A stretch of 64,000 nucleotides of DNA from Zopfochytrium polystomum (taxonomy: Eukaryota > Chytridiomycota > Chytridiomycetes > Chytridiales > Chytridiaceae), in NCBI GenBank assembly GCA_025765615.1, contig JAIVFJ010000109.1:124001-188000 (forward strand), in the 5' to 3' direction. The number at the start of each line of letters is the position of its first letter. The first letter of the stretch is position 1. Positions 19,072 through 54,612 of this stretch are shown piece by piece. Under the pieces are notes generated by a model, which was given only the letters and a program-made list of their open reading frames with translations, did not search any database and was not told where the DNA came from. The translations under genes were made by a program, and so were the position numbers.

Positions 19072-20196
19072 TTAATTTTCCAAAGACCACGCTTCCCACT
19101 CCGCTCGGCGGTCTTTCCACCACTCAACAACTACAGGCGGCTTCGACAAAAACAACTCCCCAGCGTTTGTTAAGACCGCTCGCGCATCGGAGCTGCTTTG
19201 CATCCACCGCTCAAACAGGCCGGATTCGCGCCACCAGTCTAGCATTTCCAGATTGTTCGCTTCCTTAAAAGGGACAGCGTCCCAGTCAACCTTGAGCCCG
19301 CTTTCCCGCCACCACTGCAGGCTCTTGATCTGCCGGGACCGAAAGGTATCGACGACGACCATCCTTGAATACTTGATCTTGCATCCGCTGTCCTTCCACC
19401 ACTGAAGAACGTGCGTCTGTCCGTTCCTACTCGCCAGTTCCATTGCGCCGTCATCGTACCACAGCTCCAGCCCGCTGTCCTTCCACCACTGCATCACATC
19501 CGAATACCCCTTGCGCGACGCCCAGCTCACCACATCGGTGCCGTACTTGAGTGGAAGCCCGCTGTCCCTCCACCACTGCAGCACCCCGACCCGACCCGCG
19601 CCGCTGGCCGCCGTCATCGCGCGGCCGTCGTACCGCAGCTCGAGCCCGCTGTCCTTCCACCACTGCAGAACGGAAATCCACCCGTTTCGAGACGCAATCT
19701 CCAAGCAGTCTTTGCCGTACGCGAGCGGAAGCCCGCTCCCCTTCCACCACCGCAGCACGCCGACTTTCCCGGCACCGCTGGCGTCTCGCATCGCGCGGTC
19801 GTCGTAGCGCAGCTCTAGCCCGCTGGCCTTCCACCAGTGGAGGAGATCGACGCGGCCCGTTCTGCATGCGACCTGGACCGCCCACTCGGTATACGATATC
19901 TTCAACCCGCTGTCCTTCCACCACTGCAAGGTCTCGACCGAACCCACGTAGTCCAGCGTGTCCTCGCAGATGGCGCCAGACATCCTCGCGAGCGTTAGGT
20001 GCTTCCTGAGAAGCTCGAGGACGGGGATGGGGCTGAACGTGCCGACGCGGAATTCTGGCAGCTCGATGAGGGCGTGGACGAGGATCCGGCGGAGACGAAA
20101 GAGGGCCGCGACGGTGAAGCGATCGCGAGGGCAGCTTGCGAAGGTGCAGATGGTGATGGCGGGCAGGTCATGGAGGTGAGGCCGCCGCGGTGCCAT
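19072..20196 (-). CDS. WWKDSG-repeat (ankyrin-like) protein, intact
   Basis: A single uninterrupted exon of 374 codons starts at ATG 20196. The N-terminus has the family opening (a TICTF...RDRFTVAALFRL block), then an amphipathic region. Nine repeats of about 29-30 residues follow, each carrying L-x-W-W-K-D-S-G-L-x-L-x-Y and then an A-x-x-x-A-S segment. The helix-turn-helix spacing and length resemble divergent ankyrin repeats, so a protein-binding solenoid is likely. The last two units drift (LKVDW, LFERW), and the tail ends with VVVEWWKDR. No enzymatic domain is present. Codon use is GC-rich, like its sister loci at 34.5-48.6 kb. Confidence 0.8.
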   Translation of the reverse strand: MAPRRPHLHDLPAITICTFASCPRDRFTVAALFRLRRILVHALIELPEFRVGTFSPIPVLELLRKHLTLARMSGAICEDTLDYVGSVETLQWWKDSGLKISYTEWAVQVACRTGRVDLLHWWKASGLELRYDDRAMRDASGAGKVGVLRWWKGSGLPLAYGKDCLEIASRNGWISVLQWWKDSGLELRYDGRAMTAASGAGRVGVLQWWRDSGLPLKYGTDVVSWASRKGYSDVMQWWKDSGLELWYDDGAMELASRNGQTHVLQWWKDSGCKIKYSRMVVVDTFRSRQIKSLQWWRESGLKVDWDAVPFKEANNLEMLDWWRESGLFERWMQSSSDARAVLTNAGELFLSKPPVVVEWWKDRRAEWEAWSLEN

Positions 20197-32156: not shown

Positions 32157-33010
32157 TGCTTCAGCAAAGAGGCTGGCTGGCACCAAGCGGCGCTGAACTA
32201 ACGCAAGAGACTCCAAAAGAAGAAGCCAGGCGAAGATGACCCTTAAAAGTTTGGGTTTAACAGAGCAAACGCAAAAATACCGCCGCCGCCGCCGCCGCCA
32301 ATCTGCCCCGCCTGCCTGTCGAGATCTTGTGGCGAATGCCTTGCCCTCACGCGCAAGAACGACTTTTCCACGTGAGAACACCACGGCGCCCATCCCTTCC
32401 ACATCCTTCTCAGAGCCAGCTTTGACATCACCGTCGCCTCTCCCAAAGGTGGAGCGACGCTGATGGATCCAATGTCCCTCGACGCCCTCGGCGGCGAAGA
32501 GGACTCGAAGAAGTTTCTTGCTTGAAGACGAGGTCGCCCAGAAAGCGATGACGCAGTCGCTCCCCATCGCCGGCGTCAACCCGGACGACTTTGATGCTGC
32601 CATTTACACGGAGGAGCTGGAAATGAATTGCTTTCACCTCCACTGTGGGGCGTGCACGTCGTGGTCGACGGGCGAATCGTGATGGGGCAGAACAACCCGA
32701 CGTCGCCGGCGGAATTTGGGAGGGCGATTGCGAGAGTGCTGGATGGTGCACCGTCGTGATCGTGGAGATCGAGTTGAGTCCGGTGAGGACTATCGCTCAT
32801 ACAGAATAAACTTCCAAAGGGCTCAATGGAATTGTTTTACTGCGTAATATTGGGAGGGCTGGACGTTGAGAAAAGAATGCACAAGAAAGAAAAGGAAGAG
32901 AAAAAAGATAAACCAGACAACGAACAATATTCTCAAAGAGAGGAATTAACGACGGGCGACTCGGCTCTTTTCGTTCAATCGTAACAGTAAGCGTCATAAA
33001 CTTGCCGCAA
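32157..33010. other. Possible decayed coding sequence
   Basis: Between about 32460 and 32760 short stretches look coding in shifting frames (for example AQKAMTQSLPIAGVNPDDFD, then GRIVMGQNNPTSPAEF). A degraded gene may lie here, but no family or continuous model can be supported. The rest shows nothing. Confidence 0.25.
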
Positions 33011-33888
33011 TCATGAGAAGGAAGCGAGACTCACCCTTCCGCCTTTCCCTCCTCTTCCGGATGCGCCAGCGACGCTCGCACCTCTCCCTCCTGAAGCAAC
33101 CAGAGTGTTTGAAGAAGTGCGAGGCATTCCAGACAGCAAATCGACAATTTTGGAGAAATAAAGAATTGCGATCAGCATTGTACAGGATTCCTTCACTTTG
33201 CTGCGGATGTACGTACCGCCAAAAGTTGAAATACCGATTGCTGAACAAAACCAAGCCGGTCAGAAAAAACACTTTTGCGAAAGCGAGAAAGGAAAACTTA
33301 CTAGACTTGAATCCAGTGGCTGAATGACAAGGGGACGATAAAAGTGGATTTGGGGAAAAGAACGGAGTGAAAGGGACAGAATGACAGCGCAGGACACAAT
33401 ATAAGCGGGGTTGCGATTAGGTCGGACGGTTTCGATGCTATCCCGCGATATTTCCAGCGACTTACAGGGGCCGATTCCGTTCGTGAATTTGGGGACTTGG
33501 AAAGCCAGTTAGCAGGTGACGATTTCAATAACAGCTTGGCGCGCGCTCACTTTTAATGCTGGCTGAATGGGCCACAAAGGGGAAGTATAGAGGAGATTTG
33601 CAGAATCAGCATTGTGCTAGTACGTCCCGCCGGACTCAAAAAATTGCCAGGTTGCGATTCGTTCGAAGGGTTTGAGGCCATTTGGGGGCGATTGCCGGGC
33701 GCTTACATGTTGCGACTCCAATTAGGTTTTTCGAGACGGCTTGAAAAGCAGGTTTAGCAGGTGACGATTTGCGAAAAGAAACAAAAAAAAAAAGGCGAGT
33801 GCTCACGTGCAAAGCTGCCGGATGATGCGGACAGGAGAAGAACGAGGACGAGAAGTCCGAGTACGAGCGTGAAAGAACGGGCGATCAT
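33011..33888 (-). CDS. Micro-exon gene for a secreted Gly-rich peptide (92 aa)
   Basis: Proposed minus-strand exons are 33888-33807 (82 nt), 33739-33707 (33), 33562-33551 (12), 33495-33466 (30), 33319-33302 (18), 33240-33217 (24) and 33090-33011 (80). Exon 1 is a textbook signal peptide (Leu/Val core ending SGSFA) and leaves phase 1. All five internal exons are multiples of three, so all junctions are phase 1. Donors are GTGAGC, GTAAGC, GTGAGC, GTAAGT, GTAAGT and GTACGT. Several introns show CTAAY or CTGAY branch sites shortly before the acceptor. The last exon is Gly/Arg/Ser-rich (GGRGASVAG) and stops at TGA 33013-33011. A GTGAGT inside it near 33034 could extend the gene to another exon. 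Total 279 nt, exactly 93 codons. Exon skipping would always keep frame. Confidence 0.72.
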
Positions 33889-34545
33889 CGTTTTGGTCTT
33901 GGTCTGGTTTGTCTCTCAGTCTGCCTCTCGTCCTCTCTCCCCTTCTCCATATCCATCGCCATCGCCATCGCCAGGTTTGACCACCAACTTTCATTTCGTT
34001 GGAAACGAAATAAAAAAACAGTGCAAAGCGGAATCCATTTCGTTTTAAACCAGTCCGTGCGGGGAAGGGGTTGACCACCCCTATTACTTTAACAAATCTT
34101 CTCGTCATTTCAGTTGCAAGGACAAGGACGCAGTTATGTTTCCCGCAGCAGAACCTATTTTTGTAGATTTGCCACAAACCCAGACACACGCTGGTTCGAA
34201 CTCTAAAGCCCTACGAAGCCTTCATAGGAGGTCCTCTCCCTTCGGAATTATTACATCGGTATCTGCGCGTTTTGCACGCGCACCAAACCCCAACATGGCA
34301 TGAGCAGACGCACAACTGAAAATATAGTCGCTGAAAGCGCTCGTGAATTGCACTCGAATCATGGGATTGCAGTACGACGTCTTCTTTTCTTTGACTTAAT
34401 CACGCGCACTCCCTCGATGCTCGTTGCACTTGGGGAATCTTTGAGGAAAGGGCTGGGCTCAAGAACTTTGAAAATTACTGTTATGGATGTGATCACCGTA
34501 TCAACCACGGCCGACCACTTAGGCGTTGCTCACGGTGGGTATTGC
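33889..34545. other. Promoter flank, no recognised gene
   Basis: This is upstream of the micro-exon gene and downstream of a repeat-protein gene. A (CCATCG)n-like short repeat lies near 33950-33975. No gene was recognised. Confidence 0.35.
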
Positions 34546-35574
34546 TCAGGCCAGGGTTACCCACTCTGCAAATCGTTTGCACCACCAGTTCCCAACGGCT
34601 TCTGTCTGGAAACGAAACATCTCGCCCTCAAATACGTTTTTAAAGGCCTCTCCGACATCTGCCTGAAGTTCCAGCCACTGCTCAAAGAGGCCAGAGGCGG
34701 CCCACCACTGGAGGACTTTGACATCCTCAACATCCTTAAAAGGGAGAGCAGCCCACTCGATCTCCAGCCCACTCTCCTTCCACCACTGCAGGCTCTCGAT
34801 TCGACCCCACCGGATGGCGCCATGGACGGATTCGTTTCTGTACCGGAGCTCGTACCCGCTGTCCAACCACCATTGGAGCACTTCCGTGCGGCCGCTTCGG
34901 CTTGCCTGGTCCATCGCCGCTACGTTGTACTTGACCTTGAGCCCGCTTTCCTTCCACCACTGGAGCACGTCAACGCATCCAGCCTGGGACGCGCATGCGA
35001 TCGCGTCGTTGTCGTACTCGAGAGGCAATCCGCTGTCCTTCCACCACTGCAGCACTGGCACATGGCCGTAAAGGCTTGCGGCCGCGATCGCCCTTTCGCC
35101 ATACTTCATCTCGAGCCCGCTGTCCTTCCACCACCGCAGCACGTCGACGCAGCCGTTTCCACAGGCGGACTCGATCGCGTCCGCGTCATACTTGAGCGGG
35201 AGCCCGCTGCCCCTCCACCACTGCAGGAGATCCACCCGTCTGCGGCGGCTGGCCGAGACGATCGCCTCCTCCGTGTACATGTCCGCGAGCTCCAGCCCGC
35301 TGGTCTTCCACCACTGGAGCATATCGACCGAGTCCGCGTAGTCTATGGCGTGGGCCTCTTTCAGCAGCGTTTGCACCTGCTGGCGCGGGAGATGGTGTTG
35401 GAGAAGGTCGAGCATCTCGACGGGAAATGAGCAGGCGAAAGCGATCAACGATGCAGCTTGGATGCGCGGCAGGCGAAAGAGGGACGCCACGGTGAAGCGA
35501 TCACGCGGCGATTTTGAAAAGGTGCAGATCGCCATGGCGACGTCAGTCGGTATCGGGCGAGGAGTTTGGGCCAT
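34546..35574 (-). CDS. WWKDSG-repeat protein, intact
   Basis: I start at ATG 35574, which gives the family N-terminus (a VAMAICTF...RDRFTVASLFRLPRIQAA block). The open frame continues upstream to 35928 but enters sequence belonging to an F-box-gene fragment. Eight repeats carry W-W plus S-G-L/Y (for example LQWWRGSGLPLKY and LRWWKDSGLEMKY). The tail ends with a WW-containing segment. There are no introns. A protein-interaction solenoid is inferred. Confidence 0.8.
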   Translation of the reverse strand: MAQTPRPIPTDVAMAICTFSKSPRDRFTVASLFRLPRIQAASLIAFACSFPVEMLDLLQHHLPRQQVQTLLKEAHAIDYADSVDMLQWWKTSGLELADMYTEEAIVSASRRRRVDLLQWWRGSGLPLKYDADAIESACGNGCVDVLRWWKDSGLEMKYGERAIAAASLYGHVPVLQWWKDSGLPLEYDNDAIACASQAGCVDVLQWWKESGLKVKYNVAAMDQASRSGRTEVLQWWLDSGYELRYRNESVHGAIRWGRIESLQWWKESGLEIEWAALPFKDVEDVKVLQWWAASGLFEQWLELQADVGEAFKNVFEGEMFRFQTEAVGNWWCKRFAEWVTLA

Positions 35575-35689
35575 CGTTGGTTTTGGGGAAGGTTGATTGG
35601 ACAGAATTTCATTTGTAACTGGAAACCAGCTTTGCTCATTTCGCTCTCGCTCAGTGCCCCTCTCATCCTTCCTCCTTTCCCCAAAACAC

Positions 35690-35870
35690 GGTGAGCGATC
35701 GCGTCGTTCCATAGGAGGTCGCGGATCTCCCAATCTGTCCTCACCTCCGCATAGGCGCCAGGGAACAAACTCTGCGCTTGCTTCTTTAAAACGGCCGGCG
35801 CCAACGGTACGACAGCGACACAGTTGTTCGCCCTTGTGGTCAATCTCCGATATGATCTCGCGCGGGGCAG
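35690..35870 (-). pseudogene. Deletion derivative of the F-box gene at 54711, copy 1
   Basis: The minus strand begins with the family N-terminus (APREIISEI). It then jumps, after about ten residues, to the C-terminal block (VVPLAPAVLKKQAQSLFPGA and AEVRTDWEI) that in the intact gene lies some 270 codons later. Part of it is translated as a spurious extension of the neighbouring repeat-protein frame. Confidence 0.6.
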
Positions 35871-36377
35871 CATTTTCCGGGGCAATGTGTGGTCCACAAT
35901 CGACGACAGGGAGAGGAAAAGCATTCACACTACTGACGAATAATAATGAGAAACATTTATTTCCCGTTTTTCTTTCCTTGACCGAAAGGTCTCTGCGTTC
36001 AAAGAGGTTTCAAATCGATACAAGATATCGCGATAGTTACAACCGCGGCGGAGGGTTTATCACAGTGTTAGATGGTTTCGGTGAACGCCGTGATCGGTTG
36101 GCTCACGGGTTTTTGCAATTAAATGGGCCCCGTTCGTCCAAGAATGGTAGAAAACACACAATCTAAGTCAAAAGAAAGTTGACTAGGTGACACGCTTGGT
36201 GAGACTCACAACTCGACACCTGCTTTGCTCAGAGAAGGGCGTTGGCTCAGTTCAGCGGAAGAGCCGAAGGATGAAAAAACCGGTATAAAAGAAAGTGGGG
36301 AAGTAGAATGGCGACGATCGCTCGCTGACAATGGTTGTCTACAAGTTGAATCACTCAGAGTCCTCCTCATCGTTGCT

Positions 36378-41257: not shown

Positions 41258-42164
41258 TCAACATCGATCCACCTTGTCCAACCACCACTTCTTCACAACT
41301 TCGTGCGGCGTGAAGCTCACTGCATCACTAGTATACTTGAAGGGAAGTCCACTGTCAATCCACCACTGTAAGCACTTCGACCCGCCCAGCGAAGCTGGCA
41401 GCCGCAATCGGGCGGACCCCGTATCGCACCTCCAGCCCGCTGTCCTTCCACCATTGCAGCACACAAATCGATCCCTTCTCGGAAGCGATATCCAAACATT
41501 CGTCGTTGTACTTGAGCGGAAGCCCGCTGTCTTTCCACCACTCCAGCGCACTAATCGATGCGTTTTCGGATGCGATTTTCAAACAATCTTCGTTGTACTT
41601 GAGCGGAAGCCCGCTGTCCTTCCACCACTGCAGAACGTCGACGTGGCCGTGACGGCTGGCGTCTTTCATCGCCGTCTCGTCGTACTTGAGTTCGAGCCCG
41701 CTGTCCTTCCACCACTGCAGGACGTCGACGTGACCGTTTCCCGATGCCCAACAAATCGCGTCCGAGGTATATTCCAGCGGGAGGCCGCTGTCCTTCCACC
41801 ACCGCAGGAGATCGAGCCGTCCGCGACGGCACGCCGAGTCGATCGCGTCCTCCGAGTAAATGCAGTCGAGCAGGTGGAGTCCGTTGTCTTTCCACCACTG
41901 GAGTACCTCGACCGAGTCGACAAAGTCGACGGCGAAGCTGCCGCACAGTATCTCTTCGACCACCTCCGGTGGGATGTTTTGCAGGAGAAAGCTGAGAACG
42001 TCGATTGACGCTGACAACAGCGACAATTGGAAGTCTTTGCGGAGCTCCAGCAAGCACGCGGCCTGGATGCGTGGCAGGCGGAAGAGGGATGCGGCGGCGT
42101 AACGGTCGCGCGGCGAGTCTGTGTGGGTGCAGATCGCGATTGTGACGACGGACGGGAGCATCAT
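41258..42164 (-). pseudogene. WWKDSG-repeat gene with one late frameshift
   Basis: ATG 42164 opens the family N-terminus (VVTIAICTH...SPRDRYAAASLFRLPRIQAA). Six repeats are in frame, then within the seventh, near 41365, the expected LQWWIDSGLPFKY continues in another frame and ends with the usual WW tail (VVKKWWLDKV, stop at 41258). If real, the lesion replaces only the last unit, so a slightly shortened protein could still fold. Confidence 0.7.
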
Positions 42165-43086
42165 GACTGTCAAAGGGGCTTGTGGCGAAGTTTTGCTAGT
42201 TTTTTTTTTGGTTTGTGCCTTCACACCAGGGGAAAGAGCCGTGCTAATTGCGAAAGGCGATGAATGCACGGGACGATGAAAGAGAGCTCGAACGAAGTGT
42301 ATTGGCACGAGCAGAGGGCTTTTTTAAAATTTTTGGAAGAGTTAAGAGGAGAGGAGAAGTAAAAAGCTATGGTGGAGCGGCGACGTTCGGAGGGCGGCCG
42401 ATACCCGCGACAGTGATCGACTGCGCCCGGCGCCAAAACGTCGCGGCGGTCGACCAGCGTGTCGGCGGGATAGGTCACCCACTAGACGCATTTTGCTCAA
42501 CGCTCTCACTTTTTTCTGTGGTTTTTGGAACCATCAAAAAGTCAACGGAGGATGTACTATGACGCATTTGCGCGGTTGGTCCAGCAAATGTACCGACAAA
42601 TGGACGTATTTTTGTGATATGTGGGGTTTGTGGGAGTGGTCCTCAATGTTCTTCAGAAGCATCGATACTTTGGCGGGGAAACTGGGTCGAAACAAGCGCG
42701 CACGCCCGCCGAAAAGTCGGGAATGGACATCGCTGTGGTGCACAATTGGATCTACTACGACACGTTTTTTTCCCCGTGGAACACGACAGATTCACGTTTC
42801 CTTGAAACCTCTTTACGCAAGTGCTTAAAAGAAGTGAGCCATGCGAGTTCATGCTAAGTGATGGTTTTCAGTTATATTTGGTTTTATTTATGCTGACGAC
42901 TCACAACATCCCGCAGCCATCAGACCCATGGCTTCGAAAAAAAATGGGGGCCCCCCCCTTGGAGGTTAGGTCCACTCGCACGCTTTCCGGTTTGGCGACA
43001 GAACTTCAGAGAGCTCCATCCAGCTGCCCAACTCACCATTGTTAACCTCTTCGTTCTTCGCCCCACTCACTGCATCACTGGGTACT
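42165..43086. other. No recognised gene
   Basis: Upstream flank of a minus-strand family member. Frames of about 100 codons show no motif. Confidence 0.3.
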
Positions 43087-48625: not shown

Positions 48626-48930
48626 AAGCGCCACTCGTCAGAGCACTCAACTCATTCTCCTGCAACTTTAAGCACTCTTGACTCTTCTCAATTATGAACC
48701 AGTCGCCAGGCGTAGTACAATCGACAGAACACTCGGCAGCCTCACCAGCTTCTCGCTGTGCATGTCGCAACCAGGAGCGAGGCGGTCTGCTTGGATGGCT
48801 CCACAGGCCACTCCTTTTATCGAGAGCCCCCCTTCTGGCTGGTGGACTCAGGACCCATGAAAACCTTCCCCATCCTCTCCCGACTCGCAATTGTTCCTGT
48901 ATCCACAACGCGACGACAAGGCACCACGAG

Positions 48931-49002
48931 GACGACCTCGGGAAGGTCTGCAACGACCTCATTGCCCACGCCAAGGGCAAGCAGCTCAAGGTCAAGGGCC
49001 CC
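48931..49002 (+). pseudogene. Fragment resembling ribosomal protein uS10
   Basis: One frame reads DLGKVCNDLIAHAKGKQL followed by KVKGP. This matches the region of eukaryotic uS10 (RPS20) just before the conserved RLPTK motif, known from the family as LEKVC.DLI..AK.KNLKVKGP. The expected following residues are absent, and the preceding ones do not match. It looks like a short displaced or decayed piece just upstream of the HET-domain gene. Confidence 0.5.
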
Positions 49003-49220
49003 GACTTCGGCCATTCTCCTCGCACTGACCCGCGCACGCTTGGCGATACGCGGAGGTGGAGTAAATTGCGCAGGAGCGTTGGTGAATAGGTTCGAAAGAG
49101 TGTCTCTACCGCCCACTGCAGAACCAAAGAAGCGGCTTCTTGCGAGTGTCTTCGACGGGTCTAATTCATCCCTTTTTGCAGAAGACAGTCAAGCACTGTC
49201 TGTTTCCTTCTCCATTGGGG

Positions 49221-49221
<1 letters not shown>

Positions 49222-49289
<68 letters not shown>

Positions 49290-49312
49290 TGTGTGTGTGT
49301 GTGTGTGTGTGT
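49222..49312. repeat. (GA)n(GT)n compound microsatellite
   Basis: A GA run of about 65 nt is followed by a GT run of about 25 nt, ending 19 nt before the HET gene ATG. It is probably transcribed as 5' leader or promoter. Confidence 0.95.
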
Positions 49313-49330
49313 GATCGAAAGAAAAGAACG

Positions 49331-51222
49331 ATGGGTGGGAGGAAGCTTTTCGACTGGCTGCGATCAAAGAGGGCGACGTCACCACAAGCACGCTCCGGTC
49401 CCGGCTCGAGTTCCCGCTCCCGTTCCCGCTCACGCACCCGCTCCCAGCAGAGCGCAGACTCCGGCACCAACGCGAATGTTCCTGTTGATGATCTGCTCAC
49501 TCTAGTACGGGCGGCGATCTCCGACTGGAACTCGAAGGCTGGCGTGCGCTTCGTGAAGCTGGGGCGAACCGCCAGCGGCGACTTTACCGTCGAGCTTGTG
49601 GGCCGTGAGCCTGTCCGCCGCCAGACCTACATCGCAGTTAGCCACACGTGGTGGGCGTTCAGTCCGCAGGCGGAAGGCTACCTGCAGGACGCGGCCGCGA
49701 AGCTTGCCCTCGTCGCCCGGACTTTGCGCCTGAGCCAGTCCATTCTTCTGTGGATGGACCAGCTGTGCATCCGACAGGACGACAGTGCTGACGTCTCGGC
49801 GAACCTGGCCGAGGTGCGGGCCATCTACGCCGGCGCGGAGGCGGTCTGGATATTCGCCGCGGGGGACCCGGCGAAGCGTATGCAGATCCGAATCGGCGCG
49901 CGACCACTGGGCAGTGATCTCATCGCTCTGCGGAAAGTGTACCCCGGGCTGGACGCATGGGTGAGGCGGCTCTGGACGTTTAAGGAGGCCATCGTGGCAC
50001 GCAAGCTCCTGGTTTTCGCGCACAGCCACGGCGGTGAGCTGATCAATATTCGCGCCATTGTTGAAGCCACGCTATCAGGCACCGCCGCGACAGACGCTGA
50101 GGTTGACGACGACACCGGATTCCGCGACACGTCAGAAATGCTGGTGATGAGCTTCTCCAAAATGGCTGTGGCCCGGAAGGCTGGTCTCGTCGGCCTACTG
50201 CACCTGGAGAACGACGACGGAAGGGAGCCGCCAAACCTTGGAGGGAATTCCCCATACTCCCGCCTGGCGCGGACCCTCGGGCATGACGACGGCGACACCC
50301 ACTTGACCTTTGCGCAGCTGGTGGTTCGGAGCGAGGGGCTTGTTTGCTCGTACTCTGCAGACCGCCTGCACGCCGTCATTGACTTGGTGGCCAAAGACAT
50401 GTCCTCGTACGACTACGGCTGGGACCTCCACAAGGCGACGCTATGGGTTCTGAAGAACGTTCCTGGAGCGGCCGACGTCAACGAGGTTCTATGGGCTCTC
50501 GGCGACCAGCCCGCCCAGGGTTGCAGCGCCATCGCCCTTCCCGGAGCCAGGTGGATCCACACATCGCCCTTTGAACAAACCTTCATCGTAGAATTTTAGG
50601 TGCTAAGGGGGTCAATGGTGGGTTCGTCGACTCATACGAGAGCTGGGACCTCACGCCCCTCGGCCGCAGCGCCTGGAGAGAGGACGCGTTGCGCGGGCTT
50701 TTGGGCAGCGACAAGCTGACCTCGCTGCTCCGCAGCGTGCATGACGGGGTCGTCCGTGACGTTGTGCCTCGTAAGCCAACCATGCAGCAAGAGCAGTGGC
50801 GGAGGTTCTCGCCGGAGAGCGTTCGTGACGATCTCCCCGAAGGCATGTACGCCTACACCACCGACAGCAAGAGTATCTACCGGCTGCACGACAGCTTTCA
50901 TGCAGCCGTGGATGCTCTAAACTCCCCGACGCTCGTGCTGACAGCGGCCGTCATCCGGGGGAAGACTGTACTGGCAGTCAGCCCGCGCAAACCGACGGAG
51001 GCGCTGTTTATTGTGGCCGACACGTACGATAGGGGGTCCATGATCGAAGTCCGCTCCGGCCCCGAAGGTCGGAAGGAGCTCGTCGACGTGCAGTTGATAG
51101 TGGGTCACAGATCGGATGAATTTTTGCTCAGGACACAGGATCCGGATGACATCATGCTGGAGGAGCTAGCAGAGGCGATGGTGAATACGCGGGACGGGCA
51201 CAAGTTGCTTTTCCTGAATTGA
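49331..51222 (+). CDS. HET-domain-like protein, one frame break
   Basis: ATG 49331 opens a basic, Ser/Arg-rich leader and then the three blocks of a heterokaryon-incompatibility (HET) domain: YIAVSHTWW, LWMDQLCIRQDD with a following EVRAIYAGAEAVWIF, and WVRRLWTFKEAI. In fungi such domains trigger cell death or immune-like responses after non-self recognition. The frame stops at TAG 50597-50599, directly after VEF. Reading continues one frame over as GAKGVNGGFVDSYESWDLTPLG to 51222. Adding one T to the TTTT run at about 50594 joins them, so a single-base error or a recent lesion is likely. Without the repair the product is 422 aa and lacks the last 200 or so. Confidence 0.72.
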
Positions 51223-52341: not shown

Positions 52342-54612
52342 CTAGCACACTCCCATTCGCCCCTTGAGGTCCTGGAATCGGGGAGGAAGAAGTGCTTTGG
52401 TCAAGATGTCTGCAAGCATGTCCACCGTTGGACAGTATTGTAGATGAAAACCACGGTTTTGCCGACACTCCCGAATCCAATGATAGGTCCGGTGGATGTG
52501 CTTCGAAAGGTTGTTGATAAGTGGGCGGGTGGCAATGGCCAGGCTCCCTTGATTGTCTCCAAGAATTTGTAGCCAATCAGGGTTGTCCTCTTCTTTGTCG
52601 GCAGTTTGGAGAGTCGCCATATGATAGCGCGAGTCCAGCTTCCACTCTTCAAGTAGCCCCTTAAGCCACAGCGCCTCCTTTCCCCCATCAGATAATGCAA
52701 CGTATTCTGCCTCACATGTGGAAGTGGCAATAGTGGGTTGTCTGCGTGACCTCCATCCCACTGGTCCACCTGACATAATTCGCCCACAGCGTGCGCAATA
52801 TCAGGTCGGGTAACCACAGCTGCGTAGTTAAGGGAGCCCACTAAAGACGCATATGGTCGAGTCACTTTTTCCTCCTCCGTCATTGGAACCCCTTTCACAA
52901 ACTTCACGCTTTTGTCGATGGGTGTTGAAGTCTCCTTCGCCATGCCCTGTCCATACTCGTCAATCAGGTGATTTATGTAACGGGTCTGGTGAAGCCGTAC
53001 CGAGTACACAACGCCTTTGGGGGGCATAGATGGGCCACAAAGTACTTTCCCCCATGCATCAAAGAATCAAAGTGAACGCCCAAGCCAAAAGAAAGAAGAC
53101 CGACGTTGTCCTTAAGGCGGAACGCAGATCTCATCCCAGCTAGATACGCAGCCTCAAGCTCCGCATGGGTATGAAGATCAAAATAGTCATCAACCCAACG
53201 AGTGACAATGCCAAACTGGTCCACCCCATCAATAATACACTGCTTCACAAAGCAGCAGGGGTCCGCTGGACACTGCGAGTATCCCATCTCAAGCAGCTGA
53301 GAGTCAGAGGTTAAACCCCAGAGCTGAGGAGCATCAACATTACCGTAGATTGTCTTGGTACACAGCCAGATTTCTCCTTTTGGAGATCGTACATAGAACG
53401 GTTTTCGAGCCGATGCATGCAAGAACACATCAGACTGGCGAATTGCAATTCCTTCATGAGCACTAAGAGCTGCAAGAGTCCGAAGAGTCTGCCAGCGTGG
53501 GGTTGGCGCAAAGGTTTCTGCCTCAGCGAGGTCCTGCTTGCTCCCATCCACAACCCATCTGGCCTTATACCGCTCCAAAGCACCATCGGAGGTGAACTTT
53601 TGCGAGTAAATCGTGAACATGTTGTAGATGATCTCCCCATCTGGGACACCTTCCCGGCGAACCACCTTGTACACATTCTGGTCCTTGAACGACTTTTCTT
53701 CCTTGTTGTCTGCTTTCATCCACTCCTCCCAGTCATCCCGACGCATTGCCTCCTTCCTTGACTTTGGCCATAGTTGACTCCTGTCCGGAGCGCCACTAAC
53801 TTTTAGGGCAAGATCTGTCTCCCCATCCGCTTGTGAGATCTCCATGCGATCCGCCTTGTCCAGGAGTGAAGCCAGCATTGCTCGGCGTGTGGTCCGACCC
53901 TCGTGCATAGCGCGATAGTCCGGCCGGTTTGACTGATCCCGGAGAAAGTAATGTTCGGGCCTCGGAATCTGAGAGTCCTGTTGGGGCGTTCGTGGACGGG
54001 TGAGCTCTGCCGGTGGGATTGCCCCTGGCGCCGGAATACAGAAAGCCGGAGCTGGGTTGTGCGGATGTCTCTCTGTTGCCCCATCAACCCCCCCACGCTG
54101 GCGGTGACTGGGACAAAATCTCCCACAGTCTGAGGAGTATCATCCTCGTCAGCTGGTGATGGCTCAGGCGCACGGAAAAATGGGGAGGTCAGTGGAGTGA
54201 CAAGCGACGGGGGCGGCGTAGATGGCACAGGGTGACCCCACTCTAACTCTGGAATAGGAGAATTCCAGAGATTCGTTACTGGTAGGCTTTCAAAAATGGT
54301 GGATGAAGGTGGCATGCGGAGGTCATTGGACGTGGGAAACGATGTCTCGTCGAAAATGACATCCCGGCTGATGACAGTGGATCCGTCTGACCGGCGAAGG
54401 ATATACCCTTTTGTACCACGAGCGTACCCCATAAATTGGCACTTCTCAGCACGAAAATGAAGACCACGCTTTTCCTCTTTAGGGATATTTCGGTAGGCTG
54501 TACACCCAAACACACGCAGCATAGAGATAGAAGGCGGTGCCCCTCGGATTGTTTCGTACGGCGTCATTACAATGCCAAGCCGCTGCTGTTCGCTACCTCG
54601 GTTCGTTCCCAC
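52342..54612 (-). mobile_element. Truncated, frameshifted Ty1/copia retrotransposon pol
   Basis: Reading the minus strand from 54612: the end of an integrase core (MTPYETIRGAPPS, VFGCTAYRNIPKEEKRG, AEKCQFMGYARGTKGY, SRDVIFDE); a linker; reverse transcriptase (KARWVVDGSKQ, ETFAPTPRW, DVFLHA, then the catalytic RWVDDYF box); and RNase H (TSTCEAEYVALSDGGKEALWL, KHIHRTYHWIRE, VDMLADILTKALLPPRF), ending …GRMGVC. This domain order (integrase before RT) is diagnostic of copia. At least three frame changes break it. Gag, protease and most of the integrase are missing at the 54.6 kb end, so the copy is dead and 5'-truncated. Confidence 0.9.

Follow-up and report, generated by a model that had tools for sequence, protein, structure and literature searches.

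Does a short stretch of chytrid DNA encode a secreted peptide put together from a chain of micro-exons and, if it does, what kind of gene is this and what might its product do? The locus lies on the minus strand of a 64,000-nucleotide stretch of a genomic contig (here called the window), and the initial annotation had read it as a chain of seven exons encoding a secreted peptide in a probable fungus. We conclude, with a probability of about 0.8, that this is a protein-coding gene from a small paralogous chytrid family, giving a secreted, basic and probably outward-acting peptide from phase-1 micro-exons; the architecture, paralogues, frame-keeping indels, module duplication, faster change of exons than introns between two of the copy types (A and B) and charge are read from sequence, and splicing, secretion and function are what we infer.

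Results

The assembly comprises 80 Mb in 761 contigs. The organism had been taken for a fungus, and it is one, the chytrid Zopfochytrium polystomum of the order Chytridiales. The assembly contains a flagellar radial-spoke gene, as fits a chytrid, and the 5.8S region looked fungal when judged by eye; on C52 (stretch L052) the 5.8S gene is adjoined by a long C-rich repeat array made of repeated CCCCACTTG units. Elsewhere in the window there is a HET-domain ORF at 48758-50599, a Copia-type reverse transcriptase ORF at 52973-53908 and three ankyrin ORFs at 19072-20196, 34546-35928 and 41355-42308.

The window gene is one of several paralogues. It is copy A on contig C109, and copy A also occurs on C134 and C123. 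The same three contigs carry copy B and three near-identical copies of another gene type, P2, in the identical order P2, B, A, and they look like haplotypes or duplicated segments. Copy D lies on C325 and a further type, Q, on C97. Upstream of the window gene, positions 34081-34445 are about 87% like a stretch downstream of P2 on C109. This likeness suggests that the window copy may derive from a tandem of the P2-B type that was later inverted.

All seven of the minus-strand exons originally proposed for the window gene were found in place with AG/GT borders, as exons predicted from the DNA. Exon 1 (33807..33888, minus strand, 82 nt) holds the start codon and the signal-peptide-like sequence MIARSFTLVLGLLVLVLLLSASSGSFA and ends in phase 1. 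The proposal that it encodes a signal peptide fits its strong hydrophobicity, the one property by which we judged it (best 10-residue mean 3.5), and the exon measures 82 nt in all ten A, B, D and P2 copies. Five micro-exons follow on the same strand: micro-exon 2 at 33707..33739 (33 nt; 21 in B and 48 in P2), micro-exon 3 at 33551..33562 (12 nt; 15 in P2), micro-exon 4 at 33466..33495 (30 nt), micro-exon 5 at 33302..33319 (18 nt; 21 in Q) and micro-exon 6 at 33217..33240 (24 nt; 27 in Q). At micro-exon 5, P2 has a GC donor in place of the GT found in A, B, D and Q; either is usable. Introns 1 to 6 of the window gene are 67, 144, 55, 146, 61 and 126 nt long. GT/GC-AG borders hold across the ten A, B, D and P2 copies, the one exception being the exon-7 acceptor in D.

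The symmetry claimed for these micro-exons, phase 1 at both ends, holds in the window gene and in its paralogues. P2 begins with the same signal-peptide exon and has eight internal micro-exons of 48 to 9 nt, all in phase 1, its complete series running 82, 48, 15, 15, 30, 18, 24, 15, 9, 17 and 30 nt. The signal-peptide exon of Q is different (145 nt) and is followed by exons of 18, 21, 27, 24, 9 and 20 nt that keep phase, together with one exon-like stretch that is homologous to the family and fits no frame.

It is at the 3' end that our model departs from the initial annotation. There, exon 7 had been drawn as 33011..33090 (minus strand, 80 nt) and ended at a TGA, and with this version the joined exons do close at 93 codons, coming to 279 nt, or 92 residues and a stop. 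The Gly/Arg-rich composition reported for the exon also stands, but its end at TGA 33011 was probably misread. We think it fairly likely, from the sequence, that exon 7 stops at 33035 and that the gene continues into an eighth exon at 32858-32823. In this model exon 7 is the Gly/Arg-rich stretch 33035..33090 (56 nt), entered in phase 1 and left in phase 0 at a GTGAGT donor. A probable intron 7 of 176 nt (32859..33034), ending in a pyrimidine tract and CCAG, leads to the probable exon 8 (32823..32858, 36 nt including a TGA stop), which would encode PSQYYAVKQFH; all three are on the minus strand, and the eight-exon product would have 96 residues. Intron 7 is homologous to P2 intron 10 (z 27.5), and P2 has a counterpart of exon 8 with a similar start (30 nt, LSKYITERE). 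The seven-exon version would instead read through the donor into an unspliced extension, 33011..33034 on the minus strand, adding VSLASFS and the TGA. This TGA is kept in all seven A, B and D copies, and the TGA of exon 8 has gone from two of the three B copies. However, the donor after exon 7 has the form GTRAGT in all 14 copies (ten GTGAGT and four GTAAGT), the seven-exon TGA is absent from all three P2 copies, and the unspliced P2 readings vary in length among themselves, one copy being frame-shifted there relative to the other two. We therefore regard the seven-exon ending as possible but the less probable of the two.

Could such a chain be the product of chance? Both strands of the window were scanned under these rules: the first exon had to be hydrophobic, 61-139 nt long and in phase 1 at its end, and at least five exons of 9-48 nt had to follow it in frame, with donors that are strong and acceptors rich in pyrimidines. 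One chain was found, at 33888. In 60 first-order Markov sequences, each 64 kb long and scanned on one strand, the rules gave no chain; in 1000 more random sequences of that kind and length, eight starts were extended by a single micro-exon and not one by two. On these results we rejected a chance origin, taking the scan figures as a guide and not as a clean p-value because the gene was already known when the rules were framed. The paralogues elsewhere in the genome are stronger evidence on this point. Applied to ten fetched loci, the rules recovered a chain of five in four, all A and B copies, and none in the other six, which hold the damaged B copy on C109 (B_C109), D with its weak exon-1 donor, Q with its longer introns and three truncated copies. 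P2, whose donors are weaker, was also missed.

Lengths of homologous exons differ by multiples of three, with B_C109 and the one Q stretch as exceptions. Among A, B and D the exon indels are 12, 3 and 9 nt, plus a 1-nt insertion in B_C109, and those of the introns (1, 2, 4, 5, 6, 9 and 14 nt, among others) are for the most part not divisible by three. Exons of A and P2 differ by 15, 3 and 39 nt, and those of Q differ from A or P2 by 3, 3, 9 and 3 nt. The introns themselves carry traces of how the chain may have been built. In a comparison of 136 pairs, with 200 shuffles each, window introns 1 and 3 were alike (z 15; a common 3' block), as were window introns 2 and 4 (z 7.1), P2 introns 3 and 8 (z 5.5) and P2 introns 2 and 7 (z 5.2), which shows that exon-intron modules were duplicated. 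The 3' end of window intron 6 matches P2 intron 9 (z 6.9) and its middle matches P2 intron 7 (z 3.6). As far as can be read from sequence, this fits a history in which the two micro-exons that separate P2 introns 7 and 9 were lost or gained with the frame untouched; P2 intron 2, itself like P2 intron 7, scores higher against window intron 6 (z 8.8).

Searching the assembly with an intron motif gave 23 matches, 17 in the family and six elsewhere (two mismatches), and the reversed control pattern gave seven. With an intron-7 motif there were 18 matches, nine in the family and nine elsewhere (two mismatches), and ten for the control. The one non-family match that we fetched among the six, on C413 (two mismatches), was considered as a further member and rejected, being an unrelated open coding stretch that looked kinase-like by eye.

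Between A and B the micro-exons have changed faster than the introns around them. They differ at 24 or 23 of 105 positions, and the introns at 70 or 59 of 765 (p=1.4e-4 or 4.2e-5), so that micro-exon divergence is 2.5-2.8 times that of introns. The contrast runs in the same direction between A and D (17/117 against 80/768, p=0.2) and between D and B (p=0.077 and 0.11), significantly in neither case. Set against introns, nonsynonymous sites gave significant results for A-B (19/74.7; p=1e-4 or 1.3e-5) and D-B (p 0.01) and a non-significant one for A-D. An excess of nonsynonymous over synonymous change was not significant for A-B (p=0.3, 0.6) or A-D (p=1), and of the four pairs tested only D-B_C123 reached p=0.033. 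The copy pairs used in all these tests have sequences in common and are not independent. Across the three contigs carrying P2, exons 2-11 contain no segregating site in 221 positions, against 18 in 864 positions of intron (p=0.033). The A-B contrast and the invariant P2 exons together suggest rapid exon divergence from one gene type to another and exon conservation within P2. The initial annotation had proposed that this one locus could generate peptide diversity; the diversity visible here lies instead between gene copies, whose predicted exons have been gained or lost and have diverged fast.

From residue 22 onwards the predicted products of the family are 74-79 residues long, Gly-rich, strongly basic (pI about 11) and almost devoid of Asp and Glu, with at most one Cys. 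The A product has 75 residues over this range, a pI of 11.2, nine Lys/Arg and 16 Gly, with no Asp/Glu and no Cys; those of B (two copies counted) and D are like it apart from a single Cys. The acidic residues of P2 number two and lie in its last exon, and Q, up to the last exon identified, has none. When the bases of A exons 2-7 were shuffled, 143 of 20000 shuffles reached zero Asp plus Glu. Neither A nor P2 matched a Pfam family at E values up to 1, and a search of the PDB with P2 returned one match (E 0.27), which we took as chance.

What would such a peptide do? We tentatively favour an extracellular action on other organisms or on anionic surfaces, such as that of an antimicrobial or competition peptide, and put a role against other organisms at somewhat below even odds. 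Next in our order, and rather less probable, is a function in the wall or in adhesion. Here the micro-exon gene would be real and its peptide secreted, but the role would be structural or self-directed, in the cell wall or in rhizoid adhesion, and the fast exon change would reflect relaxed constraint combined with gene conversion of the rest of the gene. Being rich in Gly and free of acidic residues, the sequence would fit a binder of wall material or polysaccharides as well. Divergence between A and B is lower in exon 7, intron 7 and the 3' flank than in the remaining introns, a pattern expected of gene conversion, and conversion could contribute to the exon/intron contrast. Against this, the A-B micro-exons outpace the introns, for which relaxed constraint alone is insufficient, though conversion of introns could mimic it.

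Parts of the family are fragmentary or damaged. C448, C624 and C9 yielded nothing of the gene but 3' micro-exons (24, 9 and 20 or 17 nt). C448 matches C97 to the left and right of a gap of ~1.1 kb, which removes everything from Q exon 1 up to and including the 27-nt exon and has its right-hand break at the donor of the latter; from the sequence, C448 looks like the C97 locus minus about 1.1 kb. C624 has its 3' micro-exons in common with C448 and C97, and different sequence upstream. Four remnants of exon 1, degenerate copies that include its 5' leader, lie beside tRNA-Ser(cga) genes on C261 (two), C179 and C266; in the fetched stretches they occupy 2069-2162 of L039, 3326-3414 of L040, 3328-3422 of L041 and 3581-3669 of L042. 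These remnants look like a duplicated tRNA-linked segment, and the stretches fetched around them contained no further family match except T-rich ones. Among the fuller copies, B_C109 has a stop in exon 2 and its 1-nt insertion lies in exon 6, and D has lost the exon-7 acceptor. With the out-of-frame stretch of Q, this damage suggests that some copies may be decaying. To extend that to the whole family, as mostly decaying or non-coding relics of one older gene, with a window copy that no longer makes a peptide, would accommodate the 3' fragments, the exon-1 remnants and the lesions in B_C109 and D. We consider this unlikely: the frame of A is open in all three contigs, and P2 exons 2-11 are free of segregating sites in three copies.

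One member of the family has a deposited protein. P0001, a hypothetical protein of Z. polystomum with 136 aa, is reproduced letter for letter from copy D (C325) with four introns, and it was the only family protein found in a database of 5.77 billion sequences. In its gene model intron 2 is retained, exon 4 is entered from a different acceptor and exon 6 is missing. All four of its donors and two of its four acceptors are those of the micro-exon model, and we take it as probably wrong, an automatic prediction unable to handle micro-exons. That the deposited model is right, with fewer and larger exons, intron 2 retained and other frames, the micro-exons being an artefact of splice motifs read into a divergent gene, is very improbable despite its exact derivation from copy D, since keeping intron 2 brings a stop before or in exon 3 in six of the seven A, B and D copies, which led us to reject it for the family, its own donors and half its acceptors belong to the micro-exon model, and the frame-keeping exon differences and the P2 exons are left unexplained.

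Discussion

Our preferred reading is that of a small chytrid family encoding secreted basic peptides, and we propose that it works as follows. In the pre-mRNA the signal-peptide exon would come first, then the symmetric phase-1 micro-exons one after another, and at the end the exons rich in Gly. As the micro-exons are in phase 1 at both ends, they could be duplicated, lost, lengthened codon by codon or skipped without breaking the frame. The family would have grown both by the duplication of exon-plus-intron modules inside genes and by the duplication of whole genes. The signal peptide would direct secretion of the product. From the micro-exons would come short basic stretches containing Gly and Pro, which could be exchanged through duplication or loss of exons and perhaps through splicing, and this part of the peptide may diversify under selection. 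The positive charge would suit binding to anionic membranes or polysaccharides.

The initial annotation had likened the locus to the micro-exon genes (MEGs) of schistosomes. Membership of that family has no sequence support: in searches of 5.77 billion proteins, scoring candidates that share short words, P0001 of Zopfochytrium was the only match (E<=1 among 59 scored, E<=10 among 7995). The likeness is one of architecture. As part of one account describes them (PMC4015677), schistosome MEGs are multigene and mostly have a signal peptide, with runs of symmetric micro-exons that make up as much as 75% of the coding sequence, short secreted products and exon skipping that has been shown. The chytrid family is likewise multigene, with a signal-peptide-like first exon and several symmetric micro-exons, here predicted from DNA. 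Set beside the MEG figures in that account, its micro-exons account for 40% of the coding sequence in A (exons 2-6) and for 57% in P2 (exons 2-9).

The bicycle genes of aphids are a second system of this type. The portion of PMC9168663 on which we draw describes a signal sequence, many small internal exons, nearly all in phase 2, a total of about 17 exons on average, fast evolution, a CYC motif and genes that are hard to find by sequence search. The chytrid family agrees in its many small single-phase internal exons, signal sequence, fast evolution and resistance to search. Unlike the bicycle genes so described, its micro-exons are all in phase 1 (A and P2), its genes have 8-11 exons, and with 0-1 Cys from residue 22 (A, two B copies, D and P2) a CYC motif is not possible. 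In architecture, then, the chytrid family resembles both MEGs and bicycle genes as these sources outline them, and it differs in phases, motifs or sequence.

Within fungi, the parallels are more partial. The SP7-like effectors of arbuscular mycorrhizal fungi resemble the chytrid genes in being a fungal secreted family that has repeats and an intron position in common. They differ in that part of PMC11333574 describes a single conserved intron, ahead of the first repeat, and no micro-exon chain. Xlr2 of Trichoderma virens has a functional microexon, a single regulatory one in a transcription factor, whereas the chytrid micro-exons belong to a secreted peptide family; the section of PMC11121469 that reports it states that no functional microexons had been described in filamentous fungi before this case. 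Among the matches listed in the open-licence literature, at the level of titles and the starts of abstracts, there was no fungal family of this kind, and nothing relevant to accelerated exon evolution was among the matches listed.

A further-reaching reading is that a micro-exon cassette system evolved independently in a chytrid. Behind a signal-peptide exon, interchangeable phase-1 peptide cassettes would be rearranged over evolutionary time and also joined in different ways by alternative splicing, so that a few loci would yield many basic secreted peptides. We consider this possible but less likely than not.

If the family is real, a same-phase micro-exon architecture would seem to arise repeatedly for fast-changing secreted peptides. 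It would also mark a blind spot, as a sequence search of 5.77 billion proteins finds a single member and the model of that member is probably wrong. Scans of chytrid genomes by gene structure could find more.
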